Below the pieces are notes generated by a model. The model was not told the DNA's origin, searched no databases, and saw only the letters and a list, made by a program, of their open reading frames with translations. From positions 248,001 to 312,000 of the forward strand of contig NADL03000094.1 of the NCBI GenBank assembly GCA_002205965.3: a DNA stretch of 64,000 nucleotides, read 5' to 3'. This DNA comes from Kappaphycus alvarezii (taxonomy: Eukaryota > Rhodophyta > Florideophyceae > Gigartinales > Solieriaceae). Below, piece by piece: positions 7,341 to 63,990 of the stretch (within the stretch, counting starts at the first letter, position 1; every line of letters starts with the position of its first letter). A program made the position numbers and the translations under genes.

Positions 7341-7344
7341 GCTA

Positions 7345-8130
7345 GGTAATGGTGAGTACAGCAACGCATCTTACCTTGGTCGCTGACAGGTCAGTGAGGT
7401 CAGTGAGGGGAACCTTATTTGCTCTAAATACCACAAATATGTCTTTGTCTATATTTTTATCTATCATGCGTGCACAAAATGTTGTTGCTTTATGGATAAA
7501 TTGCGCGCAGATCACTATATGAATCTTAACTAGGATACAAGGGTGAAGGAATTTAGTCTGTACTCTCTTAAGTAAAAGTAGAAATTGGTCTGGGTTCTAT
7601 TTCTATGGCCCTTTACTTTTTTCAGCTGCGTTATACTACGTGCAAAGCTAGCTGCTGTCTAATGCGTACCGAATCATCCCGTTACGAGATGTCACCGTAT
7701 TCTGTCTCATTTTTAAGAGGAAGCATAATGGCGCACTAAAAAAGCAACTTTTTGACATTAGTCGAGTTTCTAACGCAGTTTTCGGTCCAATTACAATAAC
7801 CCATTGAGAGCTGAACCCTTAATCTTTTGGCAGCAACCTACGATTCGCACCATACGTCAACATCCCAGTGATGGATGGATGAAGTTTTCATGAGTTATTT
7901 AAAGTTCAATGCTATTGCATCTTACTAAGGAGGGTAGAAACTAGAGATGAGGTGTATGCTGTAACTAGTACTCTTCGTGCTAATGTTTTTTAGTACAAAA
8001 TATAGGGCCTTAAAAAATTGACTACTACAGTATATTACTGCAAAAAATAAAGTTTAGCCCCGTATGGGGTCAAAAATTTCTTCATATGAGGACAACATTA
8101 TGATGAATAGACGCTAGCTAATACAACGGT
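7345..8130. repeat. Diverged dispersed repeat, copy 1 (about 0.8 kb)
   Basis: This segment aligns by eye, with gaps, to 16365-17130. Shared landmarks in the same order are a 'TGGTCGCTG' block, 'ATGGATAA.TTGCG', 'GCAAAGCT.GCTGCTGTC', a 'GTCGAGTTT' block, a 'GAGAxxTGAAC' block and 'AAAACATTATGA..GATAGAC.C'. Both copies lie in the same orientation. The copies differ at many positions, so this is an old family. No terminal inverted repeats or target duplications were seen. Confidence 0.55.
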
Positions 8131-14560: not shown

Positions 14561-15415
14561 TCAGTTATATACGCAAAAAAACCGAACATGCGACGGAACG
14601 ATGTAATACAGGCAATTTCAGCCCCTTCGAACAAGTTCGAAAAGAAAAACTTGCCACTGACAAGAAGTACACTAGAAAAGATATACCCATCGCAGTGTTC
14701 GTCTTGTCCTAGTTATTTCTCGTTTATACCAACTCATTCAATTCCCTTGATGCGGAGGGTTTCGATTTGAGTCTTCGAAAGACGTAAGAAAAGCATCCGT
14801 TCAGTTTTTAAATACATTGATCCCAAACATACTCGACCGCCAAAGTTTCGAAGTCGATTTCATTGTTAATGGTGCGCATTTTTCCTTAGGGAACAATATA
14901 AACCGTATTTAAATGATCAAAACAGGTCCAAAAAGTGGAGCTGAAAAACCTATAAGGGAATCAAAAAGATATTCAACATCATGAAAGTGTTCTGTATGAT
15001 GGTAACAGCCTTGAAATCTCGGCCACTCCAAGAATAACCAAGTTAGTTATTGCATGCATTCGAGTCCATTAAGGGAGGGACGAGAAGGGAAGTCTTTCTG
15101 AAGAGAGAGAATTTTTACCAATTTCTTGTTGGCCGGGCGTTTATTGCAGTATGCTGCGGTATTTTCGGAAATTAATCTTTGGCATGGCCCGATTGGAAAA
15201 AAATCAGCGGTGAAACTTTTTGGCCAGAAAAATAGTCTAGTTATGGTCTTGGAATTAATGTGTTTCAAGAGATGCTTTCAATACACTACAATGGCATGAT
15301 TGGCAGAAAACGCTACATCTCTCCGATTTCATGCTCCAGCTCGAGTTGTGGCTACAGTGGATGGACTTCTGGTGTGCAATTTTCTGCAAAAATGTGTACC
15401 TTAGGATGACATGAA
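14561..15415 (+). pseudogene. OrsD-finger/tyrosine-recombinase element, fragment (copy D)
   Basis: The fragment starts with the plus-strand peptide KPNMRRNDVIQAISAP, which matches QPNMRRNDILQAVSAP in the intact-looking copy at 55.2-58.1 kb. Downstream DNA continues to match 35.05-35.9 kb through the region encoding the PRL-EGR, LAGLAYIAGCCGIL and HSPNAGLGIN segments, but with frameshifts and stops. It lacks the N-terminal fingers and the C-terminal catalytic residues, so it is a truncated relic. A degenerate 34-bp palindrome (14871-14904) sits where copies B and C have a palindrome inside the coding sequence. The right end abuts a Ty3 integrase fragment. Identification is by direct comparison with the other copies in this window. 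Confidence 0.7.
14871..14904. repeat. Degenerate 34-bp palindromic site (copy D)
   Basis: The 34 bases begin GGTGC and keep TTTCC, GGGAACA and a final ACC in register with the strong palindrome at 56319-56352. It lies at the homologous position within the recombinase coding relic. On its own it would be unconvincing; the positional match to the other copies carries the call. Confidence 0.5.
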
Positions 15416-24906: not shown

Positions 24907-25551
24907 CTACAACGTACATTCCCTTTGTTGTCGGAAAGTACTTTTCGACAAATAGCTCAGACACACACAATTGGCCCGCTCGATGAACTTGTAGTACTCG
25001 TCCTTCTTGTGCTCAAACGAATTGATGCGAATGGAGATCAGCGCTAACCCGCCCACGCGCAAATGGCCTAGGACAGGCAGCAGCGCCTCCGGCCCACAGT
25101 GACCCTCCAGAAACACTCCGCTGCACAGCACAAAGTCTGCGCTTCCATTCGGAACCGCACTCTGTTCAAAAAAGTCGCCCACGTGCAACTCGTCAAAAAC
25201 CTGTTTCTTTCGGGCTTCCTCCAACATGCCCGGGCTCAGGTCATATCCGATGAGCCGAATTGGCAGCGACTCCGTGTCTGCGAGCTCGCGCAACTTTCGC
25301 GCAGGAGCGCCCGTACCGCACCCGGCGTCTACAACAACGGGCACCTCCCCATCTTTGCGGTTGCTTTTGATGAGATCCAGCATTTTACAACTCACCACAT
25401 CCCAAAGCGGGTTGCCTTCCTTCAAGAGATCCTCATCGTACGTGGGAGCCCATTTGTCAAAGGCAGCGGTTTTCTTTTTCGTCGACGCAAACGATGTGAC
25501 GACGTGGTGCAGCTCGTGCTCCATCCGGAACTGTTCGACATTTTCGGCCAT
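24907..25551 (-). CDS. SAM-dependent methyltransferase, METTL27/WBSCR27-like
   Basis: Class I S-adenosylmethionine methyltransferase; the substrate is unknown. I take the ATG at 25551 (GAACATGG context) over an upstream non-ATG extension, giving 214 residues. FDKWAPTYDEDL (31-42) is typical of the METTL27 group. VVVDAGCGTGAP (72-83) is the SAM-binding glycine loop (motif I). IGYDLSPGMLEEA (101-113) is the acidic strand end and helix that follow. FVLCSGVFLEGHC (140-152) and RVGGLALISIR (165-175) match the later strands. After KKDEYYKFIERAN (about 194) the sequence no longer looks like the family, which usually runs about 20-30 residues further to a final strand. A small intron starting near the GTGTGT at that point, a frameshift or a true truncation could explain this. 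It is the only good host-gene candidate in the window, isolated among transposons. Confidence 0.78.
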   Translation of the reverse strand: MAENVEQFRMEHELHHVVTSFASTKKKTAAFDKWAPTYDEDLLKEGNPLWDVVSCKMLDLIKSNRKDGEVPVVVDAGCGTGAPARKLRELADTESLPIRLIGYDLSPGMLEEARKKQVFDELHVGDFFEQSAVPNGSADFVLCSGVFLEGHCGPEALLPVLGHLRVGGLALISIRINSFEHKKDEYYKFIERANCVCLSYLSKSTFRQQRECTL

Positions 25552-25602
25552 GTTCCCTTGTTCTTTGCGTATATGATTGGATGGTCGAATTGCGGCAAAC
25601 AC

Positions 25603-30198: not shown

Positions 30199-31255
30199 CT
30201 AGTATCTTATCAGACGACTAGAGCAAATTTCTTCGCAAGTTCTGCGTCCAGAACGAGAATCCAAACTATAGCGCGGATGCTTTGTTACTACAAAAGGACC
30301 GTTGTAGCGAGAATTAACGGCTGGCTCCTTGACATTTGAGCTCACCGAAGCGCCTTTGAAGACTAGGACTGAGTCCCCGACTTCAAATTTGCTATCGGTG
30401 ACTTCATAGGGGAGCTGACAGAGTAGGTAACGATACGCTTGAATGTTAGAAATATCCAACAATTCCGTACCGCGATGTATGTCTGAAGTATCTCCGCTGA
30501 AAGAGAGTCCAGACTCGAATGCCATCCGCGGCGGTACTACATACAGTATCTCGAAAGGATTTGTTTTTATTCTACTCATGTGACGGCGACGGTAACCGTA
30601 AAATATCCAAGGAAGAGCTTTGTCCCAATCTTCTGGCTTGGAGAGAGTCATCTTCGTTAGAGATTTCTTAATTGTTCCAGCCCTTCGCTCTGCCCCTCCG
30701 TTCGACACTGGAGCGTAAGAAAGTACCGTTTTCCATTCTATCCCATGCGCTTGAATGAATATTTCTAAGGCCCCTGCGGTGAGACAAGGAGCATTATCAG
30801 AAACAACCTACTTCGGGACCGAAAGAATGTATTAGCTCTGTGCTGAAGAATTAGATTAGGGCGTTGTCTTTAGCTTCTTTGGTAGGTTTTTTTTCGGCCA
30901 TCTTGTCAGGTTCTTGATGCCAATGAGAATGTACCGGTTCCCACTCTATGATTCCGGGAGCGGACTCGCGAATTCGATAAAGAAGACATCAAAGAAAGAA
31001 GATAACGGAGAAAGAAGGCTCGTCTTATAATTCGGTAGCGGGGAAGGGTTCTAGAAATCGTTACAGGTCTTATCATAATCGTGGAGTTCACGGTGCATGC
31101 CAGGCCACCATAAACGAGAAGAGACGAAGTGTCTGGTGGAATCTGCGTTCCAGTGTCCTATAGCTATTCCAAGGTCGGGGATAAGTCCGACATCACAGTA
31201 AATAATGAAAAGAGCACATTCAGAGGGGGAACGTTTCATTGCCGCTCAGCAAAAT
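30199..31255 (-). pseudogene. Ty3/gypsy integrase, broken
   Basis: Reading the minus strand from 31.24 kb, GHWNADSTRHFVSSRLWWPG then DKTCNDF is the H2C2 zinc-binding N-terminus; the last zinc Cys is missing. FDVFFIEFA-PLPESESGNR follows, with the first core Asp, then VVSDNAPCLTAGAL with the second, then SYAPVSNGGAERRAGT with the catalytic Glu. YGYRRRHMS and PPRMAF follow. The end, SRYNGPFVVTKHPRYSL with SRLIRY, is a GPY/F-type module. A TAG directly before VVSDN (30808-30810) and frameshifts near 30.9-31.05 kb inactivate it. Integrase joins retroelement DNA to the host genome. No RT lies upstream: the relic stops where element A begins, which suggests A, or a rearrangement with it, truncated it. 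The wording of the motifs resembles oomycete and red-algal Ty3 elements. Confidence 0.85.
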
Positions 31256-32909: not shown

Positions 32910-32943
32910 GGTGAATTTGGTTCCACGAGGAACAGTTTGCACC
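32910..32943. repeat. 34-bp palindromic site, element A upstream
   Basis: The 34 bases start GGTG, have GGTTCC-ACGA-GGAAC at the centre and end TTTGCACC, in register with the palindromes of unit B. It lies just before the small decayed frame at 33008-33415. Confidence 0.6.
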
Positions 32944-34129: not shown

Positions 34130-34163
34130 AGTGTAGTTAGATCCACGACGAAATATCTGCACC
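34130..34163. repeat. Degenerate 34-bp palindromic site before recombinase gene A
   Basis: It keeps GTG.AGTT.G.TCC in the left arm and ATCTGCACC at the right end, 34 bases long, about 40-70 bp upstream of the first in-frame codons of the recombinase relic. This is the same position as the pair of palindromes at 55018-55123. Confidence 0.55.
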
Positions 34164-34204: not shown

Positions 34205-37123
34205 GTGAATACAGGCAACAGTTTTGATTCAGGTTACAAGAATATGAAACCAACAGCGAAAGAAGACCGGGAAGATTTCATAAGAAGATCAGATGTACAC
34301 ATCATTACGCATGCAAATTTTATAATTTGTGGGATATGTGAAGGTGGAATTGAGTCAGATGAACCGAATTTCATACGCCACATGCGCAGGGAGCGTGGAG
34401 ACAGTACTATCAGTGCACGAAAATTGTTTTAAAGTGTAATGAACAAAATTTCCAAGTTGAAAGTCAATCCCGAGCTTGAATCAAGGTAAAAGGAAAAGAA
34501 GTAACAACCAAGCACTTACAGCTACTTCATAAGCTTCCTGCCCTGCAGGTGGCAAAATGTTGTGAAATTCATCTTCTGCAACTATGTTTGCAAATTTCAC
34601 AGAATATAAGCTCGTCATATTCGGGAAAGTGAAAATCGTGATGAGCTTGACAGATACGTAGAAATATCTGAAATTACAGTTCTGAATGGCCAGTCGCTTT
34701 GGCGTGGAACCAAGCAGAGATTCTATTTTGCAATTGAGGATAATTAAATGGATATGATTGAAAAATCGAGCAATGGCGATTTCTCTGCTGATAATTCCCT
34801 GGAAAGTGCTCTTCGTCAGGTAATAAATGCACAAAATCAAAGAATTTCAAATATTGAAGATATAGGTGTCATAAAAATGCACACCCTTGCAGCCATGACG
34901 CGACTGGATTTGTATTTGTTGAACTTTGGAATAACCTGGGATAATTGCTGTCGGTCTTGTTGCTGGCCTATGAAGGGTCTCCAAAGATGTCTAAAAGAGA
35001 GAGAAAATAATGAAGGTGGATAATGAAATCAAAATTTGCTTCCAGGATCTTTTCAGTCTCTCACATTCCAACGCAAAAAAACCCAACATCCGATGGAACG
35101 ATATAATGCAGGCAGTTTCAGCCCCCGGAACTTTCTCGAAAAAAACTTTCAGCACTGCTAAGAGAGCAAAGAAGAAAGATATGCCCGTCAAGGTGTTCGT
35201 CTTGTCCTAATGGTTTTTCGTTTATGCCGATTCATTGATATATCTGGATGCGAAGAGTTTGAATTTGAGTAAGGAAAGAATCCGTTCTGTTCTTCAAGAC
35301 CTTAGTCCCGGAAACACTCGACCACCAAGATTTGGAAGCCGATTTCATTACTAGTAGTGCGGGTCGTTCCTCGAGGTACAATCTACTCCGTAAATGCGCA
35401 ACCGAAACAGGTCCAGATAGTGGATCTGAAAAAAAGTATGAGGAAATGAAAAAGGATTTCAACCTCATGAAAAGTGTTGTGTATGAAGAGAACAGCCCTG
35501 AAAGCTCCGTCACTCCAACAGCACCCAATGTATTCATTGCATGCCTTGGAATCTACGAGGGAAGAGGCGAGAAGGCATGTTTCTCTGAAGGGAGGGAAAG
35601 TTTACCAATTCTTGCTGGTCTGGCATTTATTGGTGGATGTTGCGGTATTTTGGAAATTGATTTTTGGCACGGTTCGATTGGAAAAAAAAGCGCTTGAAAT
35701 TTTTGGCCAGAAACATAGTCCAAATGCTGGTCTTGGGATCAACGTTCTTCAAGAGATACTTGCAAAAACAAAAATAACAATATCCGCAGAAAACACTAGA
35801 TCCCTTTGGGTGCCATGCTACGATCCGTGTCACGTCAACTGTGGGTGGGCTTCTGGTATGCACATTTCTGCAACAGATGTTGGCGTTAGTATGAGAAATA
35901 CAAGAAGATATTCGTAAACTGGTTTTCGGAGTAGAAGGCATATTTCGAGGTGTAATGATTCCAATGGATATCGAGAATCAATTAGGATCACTGTGCAATG
36001 ACGTTAGTGAGAAGAAATTCGGTTATTGCTTCATGTGCCACCACGCCAATGCAATGTTCACTGTTCAATATCGTAACTTCGTCACAAGAGCCGTCGAATC
36101 AATATCGATGATATCTGCTACCGAAAGGGCCAATGAAATACGAAAGAAACTCAAAGTCATTGAAGAAGTTGCGCGACTGATGACAGCTCTGATATATTTA
36201 TCGAACTACAACCCTCCGCGTGGAACTGAAATAGGGCTGCATCTTGTTGCCAACTGAGCGGTTGCTCCTCGACACTTCATGTTTTTCAACGAGAGATTGA
36301 CTTGTATTCCAGGTTATGGAAAGACATGAGCGATTCGAGTTTTCGAAGTAAAGTCGTAAGCAGTCATCCAGATATTACCACCAGTAATATATTCAAGATA
36401 TTTGTGGCAGTCGTGATGGAAATGCGAGCAGTCATGAGGCTGCAGCTTTTAGGGAATCAAACTTCTCTTGCTGCCAAAGAGGAAGTCATGGAGATGAATT
36501 TTGTTCTGGATTCCGACATGTAGCGCAATAGTTCCACTGAAATAATTGGAAAGATTTTTTCTAAATATGGAATTCAGTGAACAGTACGAAACTATCGTCA
36601 GTGGATTGGTGGCTACTGTAATGACAAGTCCGTGAAAGACACCTCAATGAGATATGCTGTGGAAGATGAAAACGTCCTTGAGTCTCACGATGTCGACGAA
36701 GACCACGAATCCGTTCAGAACATTGGACATGTGATGCAAATTCAAGGTGGCCATAGCCGGAGAACAGCAGAGAACCACTACGGCAGGGCGATGACAGGAG
36801 TTGTTATTAAGTTTCCGGATATAATTTATTCGCATATTGATCAGCGATCGATTTCGTTGTACCTAAAAGCCGCAATTTTTTGGATTAACGACTGCCGGAT
36901 TGCAGAAAATATGAACTTTTCAAGCCTTTTGAAGAATAGGGCGCAAGGAGTCCAGATTTCTAGCAATAAATAATTGTACGGCTGAGAAGAGGACATCATC
37001 AATGGGCAAGGAGACGAAGAGCAAGGGGGAAGGTGTTGCAAGCGCTGCCGCTTCGACATCCAAGCAGCATTACAATAATGAAGTTTTGGAAAGTCAGAAG
37101 AGTGCACAAACCGAATCAGACTA
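34205..37123 (+). pseudogene. OrsD-finger/tyrosine-recombinase element gene, copy A
   Basis: This matches the unit B protein almost end to end but is broken by many stops and frameshifts. FIICGICEGGIESDEPNFIR is the first finger. A TAA at 34430 replaces the Gln of the motif ELFQC. ARHIRES and NGQSLWRGTK follow; the second finger itself is lost. SFSRTSA-type middle segments include KPNIRWNDIMQAVSAPGT, then AGLGINVLQEILAKTKI and NCGWASGMHIS. At 35807 it has TGG (Trp) where copies B and C have TGA. The recombinase part shows NPPRGTEIGLHL (first Arg), RNYRQWIGGYCND (second Arg), QGGHSRRTAENHYGRAM (His and Tyr). After that the C-terminus differs from B and runs on in another frame to a TAA at 37121-37123. 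It is an older, independently diverged relative, not a recent duplicate. Confidence 0.85.
35356..35389. repeat. Degenerate 34-bp palindromic site inside copy A coding relic
   Basis: Aligned with the palindrome inside the coding sequence of unit B, 22 of 34 positions agree, including GTGC, GTTCC and ATCT. It lies at the same place in the reading frame. Confidence 0.5.
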
Positions 37124-37960: not shown

Positions 37961-38111
37961 TGCGGTCATTTAGAGGGTTGGAGTTGCGATGTATACATAT
38001 TTATACAGAAGGTCTAGATTCTTTATTAGTAGTTTTGGTACCCTGGCCTCTTTTCTCAATATAATTTCCAGATTCTCCACGTCCACCAAGCTTGGACTTT
38101 GTGGAGATCGT

Positions 38112-38149
38112 ACACGTGTCTATCTCTCGGTCTCGAAATAGACATGTGT
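38112..38149. repeat. ACACGTGT hairpin, R copy 1
   Basis: A 38-base imperfect inverted repeat, ACACGTGTCTATCTCTCG facing CGAAATAGACATGTGT, the counterpart of the better hairpin at 46829-46866. Confidence 0.55.
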
Positions 38150-38965
38150 CTTGCTCCCGCTCGGCAGGGAGACATCTGAGTAGTCTAGAAATGTAATTCC
38201 CACCAAAGTAATTCCTCTAACACCAAGCAGAGCTATTTGAAGCACTATAAAGTAAAGAGAACTTGCAAATTTTACTTCCTTCAGATTCGAGAGCCATGCT
38301 CGCAAAATTGTTTCAACTTTCCGAAGCGGACAATTCAGTAAAGCCAGTAGATCAATACTTCAACAAAAACTGACACCATTTGCTAAGTTGGTTTCACAGA
38401 GTTCCAAATAGATCTGTTTGATATAAGGGAGATTAATTTGATGTAAATATCATTTCCAGGCTCCCCAGATGTCTCCCCCTGGCGAAAGGGAACTAGACAC
38501 GTGTATCCGAAATGAATTCAAGCCGAGCCAGGTTCCAACCCGCCAGAGGTTCCCATCAGGGAACTATTCAGTAACCAACCATGAGAAAATTTGTCAATCT
38601 TGTACGCGGGAACTTCTGCGAATGGCACGTCTTTGTATCCTACCCGGGAGCAATCCACAAACGACAAGATTTCGCCTCGAATTTAAATTTTTCTCTACAA
38701 GAAATGCAGCTTTCCCTCCTACCGATAGAGGAGGTAGATACAGCCGCCGGTGCGGGGGCGCGCCTCGAAGGCAGGGAGAGGTCACTCGATAGTCTCCCAT
38801 CCGGGAGCTGTGCACGAACGACACGTTGCTGTCAATTTTAAAGCTTTTACTGTTCAAAATTCGTAGGGGTTCCAACTGCGCAGTAGGAGTCTGTTCTAAC
38901 ATTTATGCATTGTTACGGCACAGTGCTTAACACAACCAACCAGAGAAACACCCACTTCCATCATT

Positions 38966-46735: not shown

Positions 46736-46828
46736 AAATCCAGTTACACTAATAGTTTCCTTGGCCCCCTCTCATTAGAACGTCCAGCCTCTCCATGTCC
46801 TAGCAACTTTGGACCTTGTTGAAATCGT

Positions 46829-46866
46829 ACACGTGTCTATCTCCCGGTCGGGAAATAGACACGTGT
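46829..46866. repeat. ACACGTGT hairpin, R copy 2
   Basis: Left arm ACACGTGTCTATCTCCCG (46829-46846), two-base loop GT, right arm CGGGAAATAGACACGTGT (46849-46866): 17 of 18 pairs. It carries two CACGTG palindromes. It is a strong hairpin near the left end of repeat R and could be a protein-binding site or an element end. Confidence 0.75.
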
Positions 46867-47084
46867 CTACTTCCCGCTCGACAGGAGACATCTGAGGAGC
46901 CTGAAATGGTATTACATCAATCTAATCTCTCTAACATCAAGCAGAGCTATTCGAAACTTGAAAATTTAATAGAAATTGCAAATTATACTACCTTAAGATT
47001 CGAGGTCATGTCCCAAATCTTTCGAAGTATTGCCAAGGAGATTGATGGCAATGCTTGAGGACTATTTCCAAGTATTGTTGAATC

Positions 47085-51116: not shown

Positions 51117-51199
51117 AGAAGACGCAGACGACAAATAAGCGAAGACTTTTGACGAAACTTTATGTTAAGAATAACTCAGAAATGAAATTTAATTTTACT

Positions 51200-51570
51200 T
51201 AGACCACATCCAGGGTTCAAAGAACGGTAGATGGATAATGTATTTGACGCTTTCCGTCTCCCAAAACAATGTATCATCTTTAATTCGGACCAAAAATTGT
51301 GCACCTTTTTCCTAATAGCCAGCCGTAGCTCACAATAGAATACATTAAACAGCCTTTGTTAGCCATTTCATTTCTGCAATGAGACAGCCCATCCTCTTCG
51401 CAATTAGCAGCAAACCTGTACGGGTTTTGAGAGATACTAGCTCGAGGTATACTAACATCTCGGGTATGGTACGAGCCTCCACTATTTCTGCCCGAGACCA
51501 CTGGCGCACATTGGCCTTGATGCTATTCCATCTCAGTAACGGTATCATGGATATGGGAGCTGTTAGAGGA
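51200..51570 (-). pseudogene. Unrecognised minus-strand coding remnant, unit B
   Basis: Two overlapping minus frames give IKANVRQWSRAEIVEARTIP and LLIAKRMGCLIAEMKW, then in another frame MANKGCLMYSIVSYGWLLGK. The same peptides occur in unit C at 58118-58480. The copies differ here by real insertions (for example about 13-20 bp near 51450/58365), unlike most of the unit. Family unknown. Confidence 0.4.
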
Positions 51571-52185
51571 TAAGTAAATGGATAAAAAGACTATGGAGAG
51601 GAAGAAGAAAGTCTTCTGTTAAATAAGCTCGCATCGGGAGCTAGAAACGACTGCAACGTGTAGACATCCAGCCGGGAGACAAAGCACAGACGACATGTTT
51701 TCGAAGGCGGAGGATGCCAATGTTACATTCTTATCAGAAACCAGGTTTTTAAGACTGGGAGATATTGGGTTGAGCTGCCTATTTTGCACATAGATCTGTA
51801 CTAAACCCTTTCACCTTGGCTGTTATTCACTCCACATATCCTCATTCTTTAACAATGTTCCCGTAACTCACACTTTATTTAAATGCTCTTCCTGATTTCG
51901 GTTTGCAACTCTTACTCCTTAGCCTCTTTCTGATAATGCAGGGAATAAATATGTCCAAGTTTAAATCCTAGGACTGTAACCAAATCTTCATCCAGGCTTT
52001 TGCATTCTGAAACCCTCAAATCTGAAATTCAATGATTTGGTTACGAATTAGAAGAAACTGGTTCTACTAAGTAAGTGACTGCCTCTATGGCGACTTCCAA
52101 GTACCGATGGAGGTTTATAACAATAATATTTAACGAAGGAAGCTATCTGTATATTGAGGGTACGGCAAAAGGTAATCATCGGGGC
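51571..52185. other. Unit B spacer
   Basis: No gene. It contains two CGGGAG...ACG motifs (about 51633-51660 and 51669-51700) similar to those of repeat R. Confidence 0.4.
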
Positions 52186-52189
52186 CTGC

Positions 52190-53135
52190 TTTAATTCTTT
52201 ATGTATTCCTCGGTATCACACCCAATTTCAGAAGATATTTTTTTAAAAGGGCATATTTCTGAGCAGTCTTTCGTTGGATATCCGCGAGATCATTATTTGC
52301 ATAAGAAAAAGACGCACTTATCTTCAGGTTTTGATCCGCTCTTTGGAAATAAATTCCACTCCACTGTTCTGAAGAACGATAAGGTAGAACGGTAGCTCTT
52401 CAGCCTTATACGGCAGGATATTGATATAGACATACGAATCACGCAGGTAGCAGCCGTAATTACTGGAATCAGCGTATCCAGAGGCCTCGCGCTTGCTGGA
52501 GAGTACAAATTTCTCATTGATGACAATCCTTGACTGATTTTGGTTTCCTAGTAGCTCATTTTCTCCTTTCGTTAGAAAAGCTGTAAATTCGCTTTTCTTT
52601 TTGTCTGTTAGATATAAAAAGTAGGTTTATGGTTATACTCCACTGTGTTACCCTTTTTGCTCACTGTAAAACCCACGAAAAAAGAGAGTAAACCCGGAAA
52701 CAACCGGGAACACTCTGACGTAATCTATTGTTGCCTCTGTTTCCTGTTCTAGTATTTTCGTTAACCAAGTTTGCAATACACGAGGTTTGGATAGAGGCTA
52801 CCACACTTAGAATAAGTAACTAAGGCTTCTGTCAGAGGATTCTGTATCGGCGGGCATACTGACCCTTTTCGGCTTTTTCTTTCAAGTTACAATGTCCATG
52901 TGTCTGTACGTTGTATCGTATAATGTAACAATAAGAGCACCAATCTACTCTTAAAGGAGAAATCTCGATGACATAATCTTCTGAATGCTTGTTGTTATAG
53001 GGTTCTTCATTTTATACGAATGTTCTTCGTAAATTGGAACGTAGGCCAGAATCCCTTTTTCCCGGCTCTCCTCAATAGATTTGTTAATTCTGTCATAAGT
53101 AAATACCAGTTCATACACCTAACCACTTGTAGGTT
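52190..53135 (-). pseudogene. Unrecognised minus-strand element gene, copy 2 (unit B)
   Basis: The counterpart of 47190-48152. The N-terminal part reads TVRFQPTSG, stop (TAG replacing the Glu codon of copy 1), VYELVFTYDRINKSIEE and GILAYVPIYEEHSYKMKNPI. Lower pieces are GNRGNNRLRQSVPGCF, FVLSSKREASGYADSSNYG, SYVYINILPYKAEELPFYL and GVEFISKERIKT. Several frames are used, so it is broken, or less likely has introns. It points away from the recombinase gene; the two are separated by about 2 kb that contain the GATCTGCA motifs and the first palindrome. Confidence 0.5.
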
Positions 53136-53183
53136 GGAATCTAACTGTATCATCAATATTAGTCCTATATATAATCCTCTTGA

Positions 53184-53352
53184 TCTGCAGGGCCAAACCT
53201 GGAAATTTTATTGAATAAATATGGTAAATCGATCTGCAGGGCCAGTGTTTCTGGCCTGGAATCGACATGTATGTTTTTTGGATAAATTTTCGCTGACCGT
53301 GCAGGTCAGGTGTAGATTTTCTGATATTTTTTCGTGTCCGTGCAGATCACCT
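53184..53352. repeat. Cluster of four inverted GATCTGCA motifs (unit B)
   Basis: Two motifs read GATCTGCAGGGCCA (near 53191 and 53233). Two lie inverted: GACCGTGCAGGTC (near 53297) and GTCCGTGCAGATC (near 53337), each after a TTCG. The region lies between the divergent genes and is conserved in element A at 31.33-31.50 kb. It may be a control or recombination region. Confidence 0.55.
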
Positions 53353-54203
53353 GTGTGTTCTAACTAGAAGTGAAGTACGAAGTGTGTGCAAATCCTCTAC
53401 ACAACTGTTTCGATAACTGGTCACCATAAATTGGTAGTGGACCGGTAGTTAAGTGTACAACAAAAATAGAGAAGACGGGTTGTTTGCCCTTATTTTTCAT
53501 GTTGGCAGGCTGGCGAGCTAACTGATCTTACTGTTCTTATCGACAGCAGGGTGTACGTAGACACGAACTGAACTGAATTAACTAGCCTGTTTTGTTAAAC
53601 TTGATAGCAGAGATTGTCAGCTCTACGGCATACTATAGCTTAATAAGCGCCGAAATCATTGCGTAGATATCCCCGGCGTTTGTGATATGGAAAAAGATGT
53701 GTTCCTGATTAAAGATGATTGTGATACTCATAGAAGAAGGAGACCACTAGTCGAGGAACGAAGGCGTTCCTCAGAGCCTCAAAACTAAATGGCATGGCTG
53801 GTACTACAGCAAAAGCATCCTTCGGCCGCGAAACGATACCTGTACTGGACTCCAAAAAAAAACGTTAGGCACAAGGAACCCGATAGTAGTTGAAAAGAAA
53901 ATTTCTTGCCGATTAGTAACATAAATTTGCATGGCCGTGTAGGAATTCTTGGAATTCATGGTGTATACTATTCGGAGTTGAACGAACCGCACCATTGTAA
54001 ATTCTTTTTTGTATTCGAATCTTGCTTAGAACCCACTTGACAGAAGATGGTAGTGCCTGTTCTGTGTAATGAGTCATGCTTGGAAATATGTGTAAACGAA
54101 CAGCAGGAGATTCTATCGTGAATAAAAAAATCTTGAACAGAAAAGCGAGTGAAGGTAACATTATTCATGCTTGAAATCTCCTAACTGAATGCTTACAAAT
54201 CTC
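53353..54203. other. Unit B spacer with broken plus-strand frames
   Basis: Plus-strand text from about 53688 (MEKDVFLIKDDCDTHRRRRP, then HGRVGILGIHGVYYSELNEP) is coding-like but carries several stops up to 54176. A minus frame at 53913-54161 overlaps. No family is recognised. Confidence 0.3.
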
Positions 54204-54237
54204 GGTGCACTTTGTTCCGACCGGAGCAATCTGCACC
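54204..54237. repeat. 34-bp palindromic site B1
   Basis: Left arm GGTGCACTTTGTTCC, right arm GGAGCAATCTGCACC, with central GACC. It is the most distal palindrome, 0.99 kb upstream of the recombinase start codon. Confidence 0.8.
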
Positions 54238-55017
54238 ACGGGGCACTGAAAATAGAAACAGGTGTTCGCAATATTTTCGAATTGACAAAACTCGGATGAC
54301 AATGAAAATCGAAAGTGGGAATGAAAGTCAAAACTGAGAACGAACAAAGCGAATTTGTGAAATAAGGAAGTTCGAAGTGGAAATATAGTATATATACCTA
54401 TAAATCGACAATTAGATCTTTGATCGGAACTTGATCGAATTCCACGATCTTTCGGTTGACCGAAACCAAACTTTGAATCATAGAGGTATCTGCAAAAACA
54501 AGATTGGAATGACCAAATTTGGCGGGAAAAACGATACAGATGCAAATCCAAGATAGATTAAATGTTCAGTTTCTTGCCCGTCTGTCGATGCCTTTCAAAG
54601 AAGAAAATCATTAACGTACCTCAGATATTCGTTGCAGCCGCCTATCGACCTCAACACTAAGCCACGAGTGGAATTGTTTTCCTCGAAAGATCCGAACATT
54701 CGAGTCCAGTGTTCTCGCCGTTCCTTCGCAAACGGCATCTAATCGGAGAGTACGTGAGGTGGAGGACCCTATACCTCTCCCCTTGAACGCATAGGAGTTC
54801 TGCGCGTTCGAATTGCTTGGTTGTCGAGGAAGCCCCCTGAATTTTCAGCACCATCTCTGCTTCCCCGCGGATTCCTCATTGGATGGGAGGAGTACTTCGA
54901 AGAACAAGATCACAAATCCAATTTAAGCAAATCTCAACTTCGTATCAGTAATCAATTGTCTCCAGATCAGGAATCCTTTCCAAGGCAGATCAATTCTGCA
55001 CGGCTTTCAAAGACTTT
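54238..55017. other. Spacer upstream of the recombinase gene
   Basis: Several short frames; the plus frame 54821-55138 runs through the next two palindromes and ends 55 bp before the recombinase start. It is probably not a gene. The promoter of the recombinase gene should lie here or in the palindrome pair. Confidence 0.35.
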
Positions 55018-55051
55018 GGTGCACTTTGTTCCGGCTGGAAGGATCTGCACC
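55018..55051. repeat. 34-bp palindromic site B2
   Basis: GGTGCACTTTGTTCC, then GGCT, then GGAAGGATCTGCACC. Exactly 72 bp from site B3 start to start, and 143 bp upstream of the recombinase ATG. Confidence 0.85.
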
Positions 55052-55089
55052 GTAACTTCAGCACCAGCGGAGTATCAGATTCCTAATTT

Positions 55090-55123
55090 GGTGCACTTTG
55101 TTCCGGCTGGAACGATCTGCACC
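55090..55123. repeat. 34-bp palindromic site B3
   Basis: GGTGCACTTTGTTCC, then GGCT, then GGAACGATCTGCACC. It ends 70 bp before the recombinase ATG. A tandem pair of sites just upstream of the gene suits autoregulation by the encoded protein, a proposal rather than a demonstrated function. Confidence 0.85.
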
Positions 55124-55193
55124 GAATTGGGGAAATAGATTTAGTTTCCTAACTCTCTGAACCGTCAGTCTTGTTGGGAAAGGGTTTCTTCAA

Positions 55194-56774
55194 ATGAATA
55201 TCTCCAAGGCTGAAGAGCGACTTCGACTTTCACAAGTATTTGTTGTCCCTCACGCCAATATCATTGTCTGTGGGATATGCGAAGGTGGGATTGAATCAGA
55301 CGAACAGAACTTCATTCGTCATATGCGTCGCGAACATCATGGGAACACGGCATATGCCCGAGAATTGTTTCAATGTGCTATGGAGAAGATCACCGTTGTT
55401 GAAACGAACCGTGAACTTGAAGAACTGTACAAGGAGAAGGACTCGACAAAGAGGAACTTTGGATTACTTCCAAAGCTTCCTGGACTTCCAGTGACGAAGG
55501 TTGTGAAGTGCATGCACTGCAATCACGTATGCAAAGGACACCGCACCCTGGCCCGTCATATTAGGGAGAGTCGACACCATGATGAGATCGATGGCGAAGT
55601 GGACATTTCTGAAGTTCCCCTCATAAATGGACAGTCGCTTTGGCGTGGAACGAAAGCCAAGTTCTACTTTGCAATAGAAGATAAGCACCTCGAGCATGGA
55701 AACGAAGGTAATGGTAGCGGCTCTTCTCGTAGCAATCTTATTGCAGCGTTGGAACATGTCCGCGATTCTGGCAGTCGATTGAAGACTCACCAACCAAAAA
55801 TGAAAGGTGTTGATGTCAGATACCTGCACACGATTGCAGCATTGACGCGACTTGATGTGTACCTAAATAATTTCGGAATTACATGGGAACATGCAGTTCT
55901 GCTCACTGCTGGACCCGGACGGGGTAATGGGGAAGTCGGTGATAGAGGGGAAACAACGAAAGTTGCGGAGGAAATTAAGCATTGTTTCCAAAATATTTGT
56001 CGTCTGTCCCGAATGCATGCATCTCAGCCGAACATGCGAAGAAATGATATCTTGCAAGCTGTTTCGGCTCCAGGAACGACTTCGAAGAAAGTTTTTCAGT
56101 ATTGTCCAGAAAGCACAGAAGAACGTTATGCGCGACACGGAGTAAGGCTAGTGTTGATGACTTTTCGATTGTGTCGATTACTAGATTTCGAAAGGTTCCC
56201 GGGCTTCAACTTTGAATTATCCAGATCGTTGTTGATGATGGCGAAGGAATTTTTTGATTCTCTGAAATCGACACGACCACGGGAGTCAAGTGCAGAATCT
56301 CAAATGGAAAATTTTGATGGTGCAGTTTGTTCCGGCCGGAACGATCTGCACCCAGATTCTGCGCACAAACTATTGCACACCGGTAGTCTTGAGCAGTCCG
56401 ATGGCAGATTGAGGGCACTTTTCAATCTCATCACAGCCATATTGTACGAAAGAAACACACTCGAAAGCCAGATTGCCCCGAATGTGGCAAATGTATTCGT
56501 CGCCTGTCTCGGTGTTTTTCGAAAAAAGAGCGAACAACCACGGCTTGCTGAAGGGAGAGTGATATCTCCAGTTCTAGCTGGTCTTGCGTATATCGCTGGA
56601 TGTTGTGGAATTTTGTCAATTGATCTCTGGCACGGAAAGGGAGGAATACAGAAGGCCTTCGAGCTAGTTATGCAACGGCACTCCCCCAATGCCGGGCTTG
56701 GAATAAACGTGTTCCAAGAAATGCTGGCTAAAACGAAAATAACAAGATCCGCTGAGAACGCCAGGGAGCTCTGA
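55194..56774 (+). CDS. OrsD-type zinc-finger/tyrosine-recombinase protein, N-terminal part
   Basis: 526 codons from ATG to an in-frame TGA. Finger 1 is CGICEGGIESDEQNFIRHMRREHH (C26, C29, H43, H48). Finger 2 is CMHCNHVCKGHRTLARHIRES (C106, C109, H122, H128). Two such fingers with a link ending in GLLPKLPGLPV recall the OrsD/DUF3505 region of fungal mobile-element and RecQ-linked proteins, as I know that family. The middle (residues about 140-526) includes VRYLHTIAALTRLDVYLNNF, QPNMRRNDILQAVSAPGTTS and LAGLAYIAGCCGILSIDLWH, conserved in copies A and D. A 34-bp palindrome lies inside the coding sequence at about residues 376-387. The ATG follows two palindromes. After the TGA the same frame continues for 435 codons, and copy A has Trp there, so this is probably one 961-residue protein with a nonsense codon, or one made by readthrough. 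Confidence 0.75.
   Translation: MNISKAEERLRLSQVFVVPHANIIVCGICEGGIESDEQNFIRHMRREHHGNTAYARELFQCAMEKITVVETNRELEELYKEKDSTKRNFGLLPKLPGLPVTKVVKCMHCNHVCKGHRTLARHIRESRHHDEIDGEVDISEVPLINGQSLWRGTKAKFYFAIEDKHLEHGNEGNGSGSSRSNLIAALEHVRDSGSRLKTHQPKMKGVDVRYLHTIAALTRLDVYLNNFGITWEHAVLLTAGPGRGNGEVGDRGETTKVAEEIKHCFQNICRLSRMHASQPNMRRNDILQAVSAPGTTSKKVFQYCPESTEERYARHGVRLVLMTFRLCRLLDFERFPGFNFELSRSLLMMAKEFFDSLKSTRPRESSAESQMENFDGAVCSGRNDLHPDSAHKLLHTGSLEQSDGRLRALFNLITAILYERNTLESQIAPNVANVFVACLGVFRKKSEQPRLAEGRVISPVLAGLAYIAGCCGILSIDLWHGKGGIQKAFELVMQRHSPNAGLGINVFQEMLAKTKITRSAENAREL
56319..56352. repeat. 34-bp palindromic site B4 inside the coding sequence
   Basis: The most symmetrical copy: outer GGTGCAG/CTGCACC, perfect 14-bp core GTTCCGGCCGGAAC, with only TTT against GAT breaking symmetry. 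It encodes the peptide GAVCSGRNDLH. Degenerate versions lie at the same place in copies A (35356) and D (14871). Confidence 0.9.
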
Positions 56775-56798
56775 GTTCCTTGCTCTGAGCCGACACAT

Positions 56799-58079
56799 AT
56801 GAACTGTGGCTGGGCATCCGGTATTCATATATCAGCTGAGGAAGTAGGGATCACTATACGTAAGATGCAGGAAGATATTTGCGGATTAATATTCGGAAGT
56901 GACGGTATATTTGGAGGTGAAAAGTTTCCTGCGACCCTTGAAGCGGAGCTACTCTCCTTGCGCATTGATGTGACCGAGAGAAAGGTCGGATATTGTTTTT
57001 TGTGTCATCCTGGGAACGAATCATTCGTGGTTGGATGTCGGGGGTTTGTGAACAAAGCAAGTATTTCAATTTCAAAGCTTTCGTCCACTCAAAGAAACCT
57101 CAAATTCCGGAAGATACTACGTGACATCGAGAATGTTGCTAGACTGTTAACAACTGTACTGTATCTTTCAAGTGGAAATCCACCGCGCGGTAGTGAGATT
57201 GGCTTACATCTCGTTCGTAACTCGCAGCTTGCTCCTCGCAACTTCATGCTGTTCAACGAAAGAGTGACTTGCATACCTGGATATGAGAAAACAAGAGTAA
57301 TGCGGGGTGGTAGGAGGAGAGTGGTTAGCCGTCATCCCGATATCACGACCAGTAATTTGTTCAAAATATTCGTTGCATTGTTGATGGAATTCCGAGCTGC
57401 AATACGACTGCAACATGAGCCTGAGAAATCCGCTGGTTGTGACACGCAAAATGCTGTGGAGATGAACTTCATACTTGATTCCGATTTTGATCGTAGAAAT
57501 ACGAGTGAAATAATCGGAAATGTTCTCCAAAAATACGGGCACAGCGTTAGGGTGCGGGATTACCGTCAATGGATTGGCGGATACTGCAACGATAAAGCGT
57601 TGAAGAACACTGCCATGAAATATGCAGTCGAAGATGAAGGCGGAGCTGATGCGATTGATCAGGATGAGGATGGAGATGTTGTTCAAAATATTGGTCAAGT
57701 TATGCAGATACAGGCCGGTCATAGTCGGTCAACCGCTGAGGGTCATTATGGAAAAGCGATGACCGGTATAAGTATTGCGAGACCTGGCACGCTTCCGGCT
57801 CACATTGATCAACGTTCGATTTCTCTGTACCTTGCATCTGCAGATGTGTGGATTGCGGACTGCAAGATAGTCGAGAAGAAGTCATTTTCCGAATTACTCC
57901 GAAAGAGGGAATGGAGCAGATATGCCACAGACAGGACTAAAAACGGGGGGCTCCTTCCAAAGAAAAGGAACCACGGTATTCACGACAGTAGGGCTCTGAG
58001 CGACGGACGATATGGTGCAGATTGTTCCCACCGGAACGATTTAGGGGATTTAGTAGATTTAGGGGATTTAGGGGATTAG
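56799..58079 (+). CDS. Tyrosine-recombinase domain, C-terminal part of the element protein
   Basis: 426 codons in the same frame as 55194-56774, beginning after the TGA (the ATG at 56799 is in-frame; independent initiation is possible). Residue numbers are from that Met. NPPRGSEIGLHL has R130, the expected first catalytic Arg. GYEKTRV may hold the catalytic Lys. VRDYRQWIGGYCND has R256, in the HxxR position with Tyr in place of His. QAGHSRSTAEGHYGKAM has H308 and Y317, the expected third-box His and the nucleophilic Tyr. Such enzymes cut and rejoin DNA through a 3'-phosphotyrosine, and are used by cryptons, DIRS elements and fungal Starships. The last 13 or so residues (repeats of DLG) and the stop are encoded by the telomere-like array, so the natural C-terminus seems to be replaced. 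The assignment is by motif order; no search was run. Confidence 0.72.
   Translation: MNCGWASGIHISAEEVGITIRKMQEDICGLIFGSDGIFGGEKFPATLEAELLSLRIDVTERKVGYCFLCHPGNESFVVGCRGFVNKASISISKLSSTQRNLKFRKILRDIENVARLLTTVLYLSSGNPPRGSEIGLHLVRNSQLAPRNFMLFNERVTCIPGYEKTRVMRGGRRRVVSRHPDITTSNLFKIFVALLMEFRAAIRLQHEPEKSAGCDTQNAVEMNFILDSDFDRRNTSEIIGNVLQKYGHSVRVRDYRQWIGGYCNDKALKNTAMKYAVEDEGGADAIDQDEDGDVVQNIGQVMQIQAGHSRSTAEGHYGKAMTGISIARPGTLPAHIDQRSISLYLASADVWIADCKIVEKKSFSELLRKREWSRYATDRTKNGGLLPKKRNHGIHDSRALSDGRYGADCSHRNDLGDLVDLGDLGD
58014..58041. repeat. Palindromic site B5, cut by the telomere-like array
   Basis: GGTGCAGATTGTTCCCACCG and GAACGAT are kept, then the expected CTGCACC end is replaced by TTAGGGG. The site is therefore complete on the left and fused to the array on the right. 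It encodes GADCSHRNDL, close to the peptide of site B4. Confidence 0.75.
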
Positions 58080-58112
58080 GGGATTTAGGGGTTTATTAGG
58101 GGATTAGGGGTT
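58040..58112 (+). repeat. Telomere-like (TTTAGGGGA)n array at the end of unit B
   Basis: About eight units, mostly GATTTAGGG or GATTAGGGG, with variants (GATTTAGTA, GTTTATTAGGGG). They resemble TTTAGGG/TTAGGG telomere repeats with an extra G and A. The array joins units B and C and contains the recombinase stop codon. Confidence 0.85.
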
Positions 58113-61143: not shown

Positions 61144-61177
61144 GGTGCACTTTGTTCCGACCGGAGCAATCTGCACC
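61144..61177. repeat. 34-bp palindromic site C1
   Basis: Identical to site B1. Confidence 0.8.
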
Positions 61178-61956: not shown

Positions 61957-61990
61957 GGTGCACTTTGTTCCGGCTGGAAGGATCTGCACC
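61957..61990. repeat. 34-bp palindromic site C2
   Basis: Identical to site B2, 72 bp before site C3. Confidence 0.8.
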
Positions 61991-62028: not shown

Positions 62029-62062
62029 GGTGCACTTTGTTCCAGCTGGAACGATCTGCACC
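62029..62062. repeat. 34-bp palindromic site C3
   Basis: As site B3 with one change (TTCCAGCTGGA for TTCCGGCTGGA), which leaves the centre a perfect palindrome. Confidence 0.8.
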
Positions 62063-62132: not shown

Positions 62133-63990
62133 ATGAATATCTCCAAGGCTGAAGAGCGACTTCGACTTTCACAAGTATTTGTTGTCCCTCACGCCAATAT
62201 CATTGTCTGTGGGATATGCGAAGGTGGGATTGAATCAGACGAACAGAACTTCATTCGTCATATGCGTCGCGAACATCATGGGAACACGGCATATGCCCGA
62301 GAATTGTTTCAATGTGCTATGGAGAAGATCACCGTTGTTGAAACGAACCGTGAACTTGAAGAACTGTACAAGGAGAAGGACTCGACAAAGAGGAACTTTG
62401 GATTACTTCCAAAGCTTCCTGGACTTCCAGTGACGAAGGTTGTGAAGTGCATGCACTGCAATCACGTATGCAAAGGACACCGCACCCTGGCCCGTCATAT
62501 TAGGGAGAGTCGACACCATGATGAGATCGATGGCGAAGTGGACATTTCTGAAGTTCCCCTCATAAATGGACAGTCGCTTTGGCGTGGAACGAAAGCCAAG
62601 TTCTACTTTGCAATAGAAGATAAGCACCTCGAGCATGGAAACGAAGGTAATGGTAGCGGCTCTTCTCGTAGCAATCTTATTGCAGCGTTGGAACATGTCC
62701 GCGATTCTGGCAGTCGATTGAAGACTCACCAACCAAAAATGAAAGGTGTTGATGTCAGATACCTGCACACGATTGCAGCATTGACGCGACTTGATGTGTA
62801 CCTAAATAATTTCGGAATTACATGGGAACATGCAGTTCTGCTCACTGCTGGACCCGGACGGGGTAATGGGGAAGTCGGTGATAGAGGGGAAACAACGAAA
62901 GTTGCGGAGGAAATTAAGCATTGTTTCCAAAATATTTGTCGTCTGTCCCGAATGCATGCATCTCAGCCGAACATGCGAAGAAATGATATCTTGCAAGCTG
63001 TTTCGGCTCCAGGAACGACTTCGAAGAAAGTTTTTCAGTATTGTCCAGAAAGCACAGAAGAACGTTATGCGCGACACGGAGTAAGGCTAGTGTTGATGAC
63101 TTTTCGATTGTGTCGATTACTAGATTTCGAAAGGTTCCGGGCTTCAACTTTGAATTATCCAGATCGTTGTTGATGATGGCGAAGGAATTTTTTGATTCTC
63201 TGAAATCGACACGCCACGGGAGTCAAGTGCAGAATCTCAAATGGAAAATTTTGATGGTGCAGTTTGTTCCGGCCGGAACGATCTGCACCCAGATTCTGCG
63301 CACAAACTATTGCACACCGGTAGTCTTGAGCAGTCCGATGGCAGATTGAGGGCACTTTTCAATCTCATCACAGCCATATTGTACGAAAGAAACACCACTC
63401 GAAAGCCAGATTGCCCCGAATGTGGCAAATGTATTCGTCGCCTGTCTCGGTGTTTTTCGAAAAAGAGCGAACAACCACGGCTTGCTGAAGGAGAGTGATA
63501 TCTCCAGTTCTAGCTGGTCTTGCGTATATCGCTGGATGTTGTGGAATTTTGTCAATTGATCTCTGGCACGGAAAGGGAGGAATACAGAAGGCCTTCGAGC
63601 TAGTTTGCAACGGCACTCCCCCAATGCCGGGCTTGGAATAAACGTGTTCCAAGAAATGCGGCTAAAACGAAAATAACAAGATCCGCTGAGAACGCCAGGG
63701 AGCTCTGAGTTCCTTGCTCTGAGCCGACACATATGAACTGTGGCTGGGCATCCGGTATTCATATATCAGCTGAGGAAGTAGGGATCACTATACGTAAGAT
63801 GCAGGAAGATATTTGCGGATTAATATTCGGAAGTGACGGTATATTTGGAGGTGAAAAGTTTCCTGCGACCCTTGAAGCGGAGCTACTCTCCTTGCGCATT
63901 GATGTGACCGAGAGAAAGGTCGGATATTGTTTTTTTGTGTCATCCTGGAACGAATCATTCGTGTTGGATGTCGGGGGTTTGTGAACAAAG
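62133..63990 (+). pseudogene. Zinc-finger/tyrosine-recombinase gene, copy C, partial and frameshifted
   Basis: The first about 330 residues equal copy B, with both C2H2-like fingers. From 63137 on, single-base losses and gains break the frame repeatedly: CCC to CC near 63139, a lost A near 63213, a gained C near 63395, and further lost bases to 63963. The shared TGA is at 63716-63718. The catalytic His and Tyr lie beyond the window. Because substitutions are almost absent while indels cluster near the window end, sequencing or assembly error is a likely cause, and the gene may be as intact as copy B. Confidence 0.7.
63256..63289. repeat. 34-bp palindromic site C4 inside the coding sequence
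   Basis: Identical to site B4. Confidence 0.85.

Follow-up and report, generated by a model that had tools for sequence, protein, structure and literature searches.

Palindromic dyads in a subtelomeric element of Kappaphycus alvarezii are putative sites for the element's own OrsD-finger/recombinase-like/RecQ protein

A 64,000-nucleotide (nt) stretch of the genome of the red alga Kappaphycus alvarezii (hereafter, the window; positions 248001–312000 of contig NADL03000094.1, or C94) contains a family of 34–base pair (bp) near-perfect palindromes located around and inside a gene. The assembly comprises 336 Mb in 884 contigs, which are designated Cn below. It contains 22 matches to PF00504 (light-harvesting genes); for the two that were compared, the best-matching solved chains include LHCI-11, LHC protein, ACPI, CAC, and Lhcr1, names of the red lineage, in keeping with a photosynthetic eukaryote and, probably, a red alga. 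We found that these palindromes mark copies of a subtelomeric element and still occupy several of the corresponding positions in diverged lineages; the element's integration junction is a different sequence. Each is a dyad of two 17-bp half-sites (GGTGCANWYYGTTCCRR), and the element, which appears to be mobile, encodes a protein combining an OrsD finger, a tyrosine recombinase (YR)–like part, and a RecQ helicase. The interpretation toward which we lean, by a modest degree, is that the dyads are putative sites for this protein. Since C94 terminates, at 328082, in degenerate telomere-like TTTAGGGG/GATTTAGGGG repeats, the palindrome locus lies near a chromosome end; the window carries part of a tandem array at most ~29 kb from this end. 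The telomere repeat at contig ends (e.g., C94, C493, and C733) is mixed and includes TTTAGGGG, TTAGGGG, TTTTAGGG, and GATTTAGGGG.

Palindromic sites and their distribution

The initial annotation listed nine dyads with a GTTCC-N4-GGAAC core, five in tandem unit B and four in unit C. All nine were found where reported and are of the kind described, but some cores and lengths need correction: GGAAC is replaced by GGAGC at 54204 and by GGAAG at 55018, and the 58014 site comprises only 27 to 28 bases, its right arm having been lost to telomere-like repeats. Of the 11 other young copies sampled that reach this point, 9 have the site homologous to 58014 in full, and C651 and C783 have a one-base gap. 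The spacing of exactly 72 bp between 55018 and 55090 was reproduced, and GTTCCGGCCGGAAC at 56319 is indeed symmetrical, with 15 of 17 pairs matching over the whole site. Further sites in the window are relics at 32910, 34130, 35356, and 14871 and a degenerate palindrome at 53960 and 60900. The sites, to which no strand is assigned, are as follows.

54204..54237, palindrome, unit B site 1
55018..55051, upstream palindrome, 176 bp before the ATG
55090..55123, upstream palindrome, 104 bp before the ATG
56319..56352, palindrome within the coding region, reads AVCSGRNDLH; homologous site in C24 and in two relics of the window
58014..58041, palindrome interrupted after GGAACGAT by telomere-like repeats
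53960..53993, degenerate palindrome, 5 to 6 mismatches in the young copies read and 4 in C24
60900, the same degenerate palindrome as at 53960
61144..61177, palindrome, unit C
61957..61990, palindrome, unit C
62029..62062, palindrome, unit C
63256..63289, palindrome, unit C
32910..32943, older-lineage palindrome, center ACGA, ~2.9 kb upstream of a relic YR part
34130..34163, older-lineage palindrome, matches 55090 in the alignment
35356..35389, older-lineage palindrome, matches 56319 in the alignment, center TCGA
14871..14904, palindrome relic in the second decayed gene copy

When the genome was scanned with GGTGCANNNNGTTCCNNNNGGAACNNNNTGCACC, allowing up to 3 mismatches of the 22 fixed bases, 202 places were found, each on both strands, compared to 0 for a reversed-pattern control; the palindromes are therefore not due to chance. 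Sequence was sampled as the window and 28 stretches around element copies, a total of 291,159 bases in which overlaps are counted. This 0.29 Mb out of 336 Mb holds 177 distinct sites of the 202, of which 174 are located between an element's inner end and the end of its contig and 3 in older copies. The link of the palindromes to the gene family is supported. The opposite outcome, named beforehand, was palindromes scattered with no association with the gene; it was looked for genome-wide and not found, with all but 21 of the 202 sites placed, and we reject it on the scan together with the placement of 177 sites. Four of the 25 sites outside the sampled stretches were placed later (C463, C488 twice, and C494). 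The exact palindrome pattern gave 0 matches in a viral-contig and 0 in a genome-contig collection, and the core strings gave 0 in a literature text search.

The fullest copies of the element carry 19 (C595), 17 (C651), and 16 (C492, without its older copy) sites within 3 mismatches. Two sites directly precede the gene; others are located in coding linkers, where they are translated in frame to GADCSGRNDLH-type peptides, and along the distal 9 kb.

To follow the sites through diverged lineages, we compared aligned copies. Between C595 and C24, five aligned sites keep 17, 20, 20, 19, and 22 of the 22 fixed bases, with flanks 59 to 73% identical. The older copy in C492 keeps 16 and 19 at the two sites that it covers, and a relic at 34 kb of the window keeps 17 at each of two sites, with flanks 42 to 51% identical. 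In the arms of 20 young site positions (three more were excluded, 3866 and 8080 as degenerate and 10832 as a near duplicate), variable bases pair in 63 of 120 cells versus 70.8 for shuffled halves [P(≥observed) of 0.99]. Pairing below the shuffled expectation means that half-sites, rather than hairpin pairing, are kept.

The four central bases differ between lineages. At young sites, they are GGCC, GACC, GGCT, and others (11 versions in the 20 positions), with CG in 0 of 20. Older sites mostly have WCGW, and all 10 in the compared set contain CG, a figure that is partly circular since 4 of them (C488 twice, C494, and C811) came from a pattern demanding WCGW; the six obtained from free-center scans have CG in 6 of 6. 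Among five weaker relics from free scans, CG is present at 31977, L011:2060, and L011:2135 and absent at 14871 (TTAG) and L020:2600 (TTGT). The genome-wide and older-type scans gave first places only, and offsets of older sites were computed by hand from the places listed. Among the matches listed, older-type sites are found ~2.9 kb upstream of the YR relic in C94, C487, C33, C14, and C488; ~4.1 kb upstream in C14, C488, and C540; at 1.4 kb in C55; and 1.45 kb beyond the YR start in C494.

A different dyad, ACGTGTCTATCTCCCGGTCGGGAAATAGACACGT at 46831, occurs in a diverged repeat at window positions 46821–46880 and 38054–38306.

Ends of the element and its encoded protein

The element in unit B and the features of its inner end are as follows (the slash marks the junction).

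53164..58041, + strand, element from its inner (left) end to the telomere-like truncation; left end common to 19 loci
53164..53178, + strand, inner end CC/TATATATAATCC, integration junction
53182..53189, − strand, TGCAGATC, subterminal repeat 1, also in the palindrome outer arms
53231..53238, − strand, TGCAGATC, subterminal repeat 2
53300..53307, + strand, TGCAGGTC, subterminal repeat 3 (variant)
53341..53348, + strand, TGCAGATC, subterminal repeat 4

The palindrome-pair region, used as a query, retrieved 17 near copies (97 to 100% identical), the diverged copy in C24, and 14 short matches to the internal site. The inner end retrieved 22 matches, of which 4 belong to the C94 array and 15 to further young copies; the older ones are in C165, C492, and C24. 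They represent 19 separate loci, each no more than ~27 kb from a contig end and oriented toward the nearer end. Elsewhere, the longest copies of the element reach ~16.1 kb. At the 19 loci, homology begins at the same point, CC/TATATATAATCC or a close variant, beside unrelated flanks; CC precedes TATATA in 18 of 19 cases, and C750 has a single C. Where an unoccupied relative of the repeat in the flank crosses the junction (n = 4), CC is present in every case:

C9, empty site, ACAAA/CCTATACAAAAGG
C651, empty site, GGAAA/CCGGGGG
C89, empty site, TGACT/CCTGGAG
C492, empty site, ATTAA/CCTTACC

The C536 and C94 flanks were left out, as their diverged unoccupied relatives align only to 10 to 18 bases short of the junction. 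Copies or the neighborhood of a subtelomeric repeat found at C745:442400–447998 (L032; also L022, L009, and L031), which is tandem at ~860-bp steps in C745, are the target of the C9 and C89 insertions.

The initial annotation likened the size of the palindromes to that of loxP and suggested a role in recombination or autoregulation. A loxP-like role in integration is not supported, since the 19 inner ends have CC/TATATATAATCC or a close variant and none (0 of 19) lies at a palindrome, and we reject the palindromes as integration junctions. The two features nevertheless share a motif. TGCAGATC is the outer arm of the palindrome in its GGTGCAGATC form and is found at positions 18, 67, and 177 of the inner 230 bp; C165 and the older C492 copy retain the first two of these, and C24 retains one. 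It is absent from window positions 1–30000, and outside palindromes in the C595 element it occurs twice, only at the inner end. Over these 230 bp, no complete half-site is distinguishable from background (59% of shuffles score as well).

Outer ends of copies differ. In the coordinates of the C595 copy (approximately the window coordinate minus 50095), copies stop at 3957 (C733), 4274 (C463), 7927 (C24), 7941 (C94), 8806 (C493), 13467 (C492), 17719 (C9), and 19185 (C595 and C651). TTAGGG-type repeats follow each of these stops directly or within about ten bases; in C745 and C652, telomere repeats are reached via sequence absent from C595. Telomere repeats are distal to the element in nine contigs; in addition, C24 and C651 have tracts with other sequence beyond them. 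C750, C686, C89, C783, and C487 finish inside the element, before telomere repeats, and no telomere repeat was found in the portion of C536 that was read. The stops look like terminal loss healed by telomerase.

The C94 array consists of four element copies and a partial fifth flank followed by the terminal telomere, with telomere-like repeats between units. Units are 99.2% identical over 5,901 bp, and the next one after unit B starts at 58112. Two decayed copies of the gene, located further inward in the same orientation, give the impression that ends were added in succession, while an old relic in C782 is more than 400 kb from either contig end and one in C37 does not face the nearer end.

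51193..58111, + strand, tandem unit B, ~6.94 kb, consisting of a 2-kb non-element flank, the truncated element, and telomere-like repeats
58041..58112, + strand, interstitial telomere-like repeats at the unit junction
34271..36940, + strand, decayed older gene copy, same orientation
14561..15323, + strand, second decayed gene copy
55194..58079, + strand, gene for the OrsD/BED finger and the YR-like part; the RecQ part is lost here by truncation

In C89, the gene spans 1,656 codons in one open frame; the sequence read covers 1,565 of them. The 1,554 residues scanned match OrsD at 19–126 (3e-8), DEAD at 1133–1289 (1e-11), and Helicase_C at 1353–1460 (7e-11), and the best solved relatives of the protein are BLM (2.5e-21) and RECQ5 (3.5e-20). 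Located between the OrsD and helicase domains are PPRGSE, YRQ, and GHS..TA...YG, which we take to resemble the R, R, H, and Y of tyrosine recombinases. These signature residues (PPRG[ST]E, YRQ, and GHS..TA...YG) recur in a second, 22% identical family with YR-like motifs. PPRG/PPRA-type motifs are present in all three of its members listed here; the other two motifs and the start of the helicase are present in C860 and C811.

C860:12300–15000 (L043), second family
C811:18800–22400 (L045), second family
C37:586000–587600 (L044), second family

Protein searches that scored only candidates sharing words with the query revealed no relative of the OrsD part or the YR region; with the longer stretch as query, two BLM-type helicases were found. 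A viral-contig collection contained no protein relatives. The C94 units have in common a single in-frame TGA at 56772–56774. Because C595, C24, and the 34-kb relic read W at this position, the codon appears to be either a nonsense change of the C94 array or an error in the sequence; read-through or recoding was also considered, and the W in the other copies points elsewhere.

Outside the element, an open frame on the − strand at window positions 30199–30807 resembles a retroelement integrase, and a methyltransferase-like gene is found at 24907–25602 on the − strand (PF13649, 1e-10; METTL27, 2e-9). The tRNA and Rfam scans of the window gave 0 matches.

Candidate roles of the palindromes

The initial annotation suggested that the palindromes bind the element's own recombinase or fingers. 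While the role in integration falls, the behavior expected of an element-specific reader stands: the sites persist, half-sites are kept, and TGCAGATC is common to the palindromes and the inner end. The integration junction, which the first reading merged with regulatory or synaptic sites, is now distinguished from them. According to the model we prefer, the element's own protein would bind the dyads as a dimer or multimer, and its finger would read the TGCAGATC-type outer arm, a motif also found at the inner end. The pair located 104 and 176 bp before the gene may serve in autoregulation, repressing or timing the element's own gene. The 16 to 19 sites in the fullest copies could bring copies at different chromosome ends together in a single complex that acts in synapsis or silencing.

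Several observations weigh against this model. Decay is evident in C24 at two of the five aligned sites, and in the 34-kb relic only two sites align, while other positions do not. The offsets conserved among older copies may simply reflect homology. Among the matches listed, no YR relic is present within 5 kb of the older-type sites in six contigs (C124, C502, C669, C686:65988, C168, and C811) or of the one at C487:271739. The 34-bp palindrome is absent from the C860, C811, and C37 family fragments and from 4 of 5 short pieces of older relics, and 21 of the 202 sites were not placed. As for the protein, signature residues are altered in decayed copies (HHQ in C483 and PPHG in C488) and in C811 (PPSG, R to S). 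Pfam and PDB profile searches of the YR-like part yielded no recombinase match, a PHROGs search yielded only weak matches to families of unknown function, and an AlphaFold model built from a five-row alignment was poor [predicted local distance difference test (pLDDT) score of 34]. Given the lack of profile support for a YR fold and the poor model, the assignment as a recombinase is kept at the level of motifs. The modest enrichment of endpoints in palindromes described below favors a role in recombination, and the reader of the palindromes could be a host protein.

How the element moves can be pictured only tentatively. We entertain the idea of a one-ended transposon: a YR-RecQ element with a single defined end would join CC near the end of another chromosome, RecQ would copy it to the telomere, and the palindrome-bound protein would pair the copies. 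Movement would thus be a one-ended join at CC, for which the telomere already on the chromosome provides the other end, and transposition would run from the CC inner end to the telomere, aided by RecQ. If this scenario is true, then the element rebuilds, moves, and stacks chromosome ends alongside telomerase. To our knowledge, subtelomeric RecQ helicases, although known for decades, have no clear job. The fusion of OrsD, recombinase-like, and RecQ parts, together with a precise inner end, empty sites, and dyads, makes subtelomeric RecQ genes testable as movement enzymes.

Palindromes might instead be crossover sites of the element's recombinase, similar to those of loxP, dif, or resolvases, cut in an RR/YY center so that copies are exchanged or resolved, with occasional broken ends healed by telomerase; we consider this unlikely. 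Their size and symmetry fit such a role. To estimate whether breakpoints prefer palindromes, 14 endpoints were collected by hand, with the common C595/C651 end counted once. This set omits the telomere junctions of C745 and C652, which lie beyond the sequence shared with C595, and the 10.66- to 10.89-kb cluster. Three of the 14 fall inside palindromes, which cover 4.6% of the sequence (P ~ 0.025): telomere-like repeats begin in the same palindrome in C94 (7941) and C24 (7927), and a 6.7-kb internal deletion in C9 (L009:6018; C595 coordinates 5950 to 12677) joins the gene to a palindrome arm at 12677 with ~2-bp microhomology. For telomere joints alone, the proportion is 2 of 8 (P = 0.05). A five-site cluster at 10.66 to 10.89 kb varies from one to five palindromes per copy by loss and gain, with an inverted flank in C487 and joints at palindrome edges. 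Inverted-flank junctions, possibly representing a palindrome-centered inversion, are seen at ~1010–1050 in C487 (L035) and in the L036/L029 cluster.

The endpoint and cluster data fit a recombinase acting on symmetrical sites but also fit slippage or repair at palindromes, and the changes in the cluster are likewise explicable by recombination or replication slippage between repeats that are 72 to 75% similar. None of the inner ends and only 3 of the 14 other endpoints are at palindromes (11 are outside), the center is variable whereas crossover regions usually must match, and an element with 16 to 19 active crossover sites would tend to delete itself. As 3 of the 14 endpoints are in palindromes, recombination between internal sites may still take place.

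We regard as rather improbable that the palindromes are sites for a host factor, linked to replication, heterochromatin, or telomeres, that the element exploits. The presence of many well-kept sites in a chromosome-end element would agree with this, and yeast subtelomeric elements carry host-factor sites. However, the sites follow the element, with only 3 of the 177 placed outside young copies or C24, in older copies, and the center changes with the element lineage, as expected of an element-encoded reader.

There is very little to recommend the view that the palindromes are hairpins or cruciforms needed as such, for replication, telomere resolvase–like ends, or RNA hairpins. The near-complete pairing at 56319 and the telomere-like repeats that begin within a palindrome in two lineages are in its favor, but the arm-pairing test, on which we reject it, reveals that pairing is not maintained, and contigs that reach their ends carry ordinary telomere repeats, not the hairpins of resolvase-type telomeres. 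Palindromic in-frame inserts are known from Rickettsia, and the presence of palindromes both in noncoding DNA and in frame in coding linkers would suit tiny mobile repeats inserted into the element; that origin is highly improbable, as the same places are occupied in young copies and several of them in diverged copies, and, local tandem gain or loss aside, neither a target duplication nor a clean pair of occupied and empty sites was noticed, although no search aimed at them was made.

Comparison with known systems

Similar to loxP, FRT, and dif, the dyads are ~34 bp long and have two inverted arms around a spacer. They differ in not being at element ends, in their number (16 to 19 copies in the fullest elements), and in the variable center.

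HeT-A/TART and Terminons are telomere-attached retroelements. The element resembles them in successive same-orientation additions at chromosome ends and in distal truncation, but its coding strand points outward and its inner end is defined; no reverse transcriptase was detected in the nine open frames scanned.

Y′ elements of yeast spread by homologous recombination. They are subtelomeric and helicase-encoding and form tandem units split by short telomere repeats (PMC4522978), an organization that the element shares. Unlike Y′, the element has a precise inner junction beside unrelated flanks at 19 loci.

Cryptons are YR DNA transposons described with 4- or 6-bp direct repeats as recombination substrates (PMC3212892). 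The similarities are a YR-like signature at the level of motifs, no noticed terminal inverted repeats, and a short identity (CC) of element end and target. The differences are that here only one end is defined, with telomere repeats as the other, that the element points outward at chromosome ends and carries RecQ, and that there is no YR profile match.

Further parallels concern fungal telomere-linked helicase (TLH) genes and subtelomeric elements, with which the comparison was made by description. UTASb of Ustilago maydis is reported to have a conserved core, an OrsD domain, or both (PMC10532341), and Agaricus has multicopy, partly truncated RecQ genes at chromosome ends (PMC7473861). A search of open-access papers, based on term ranking, found none joining "telomere-linked helicase" and "tyrosine recombinase". 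As in TLH, UTASa, and UTASb, the gene described here is subtelomeric, RecQ-like, and adjoins telomere repeats, and it shares OrsD with UTASb. It differs in that OrsD, YR-like, and RecQ parts are combined in one frame, in a photosynthetic eukaryote, within an element for which a precise inner end and empty sites are defined and which carries an array of 34-bp dyads.

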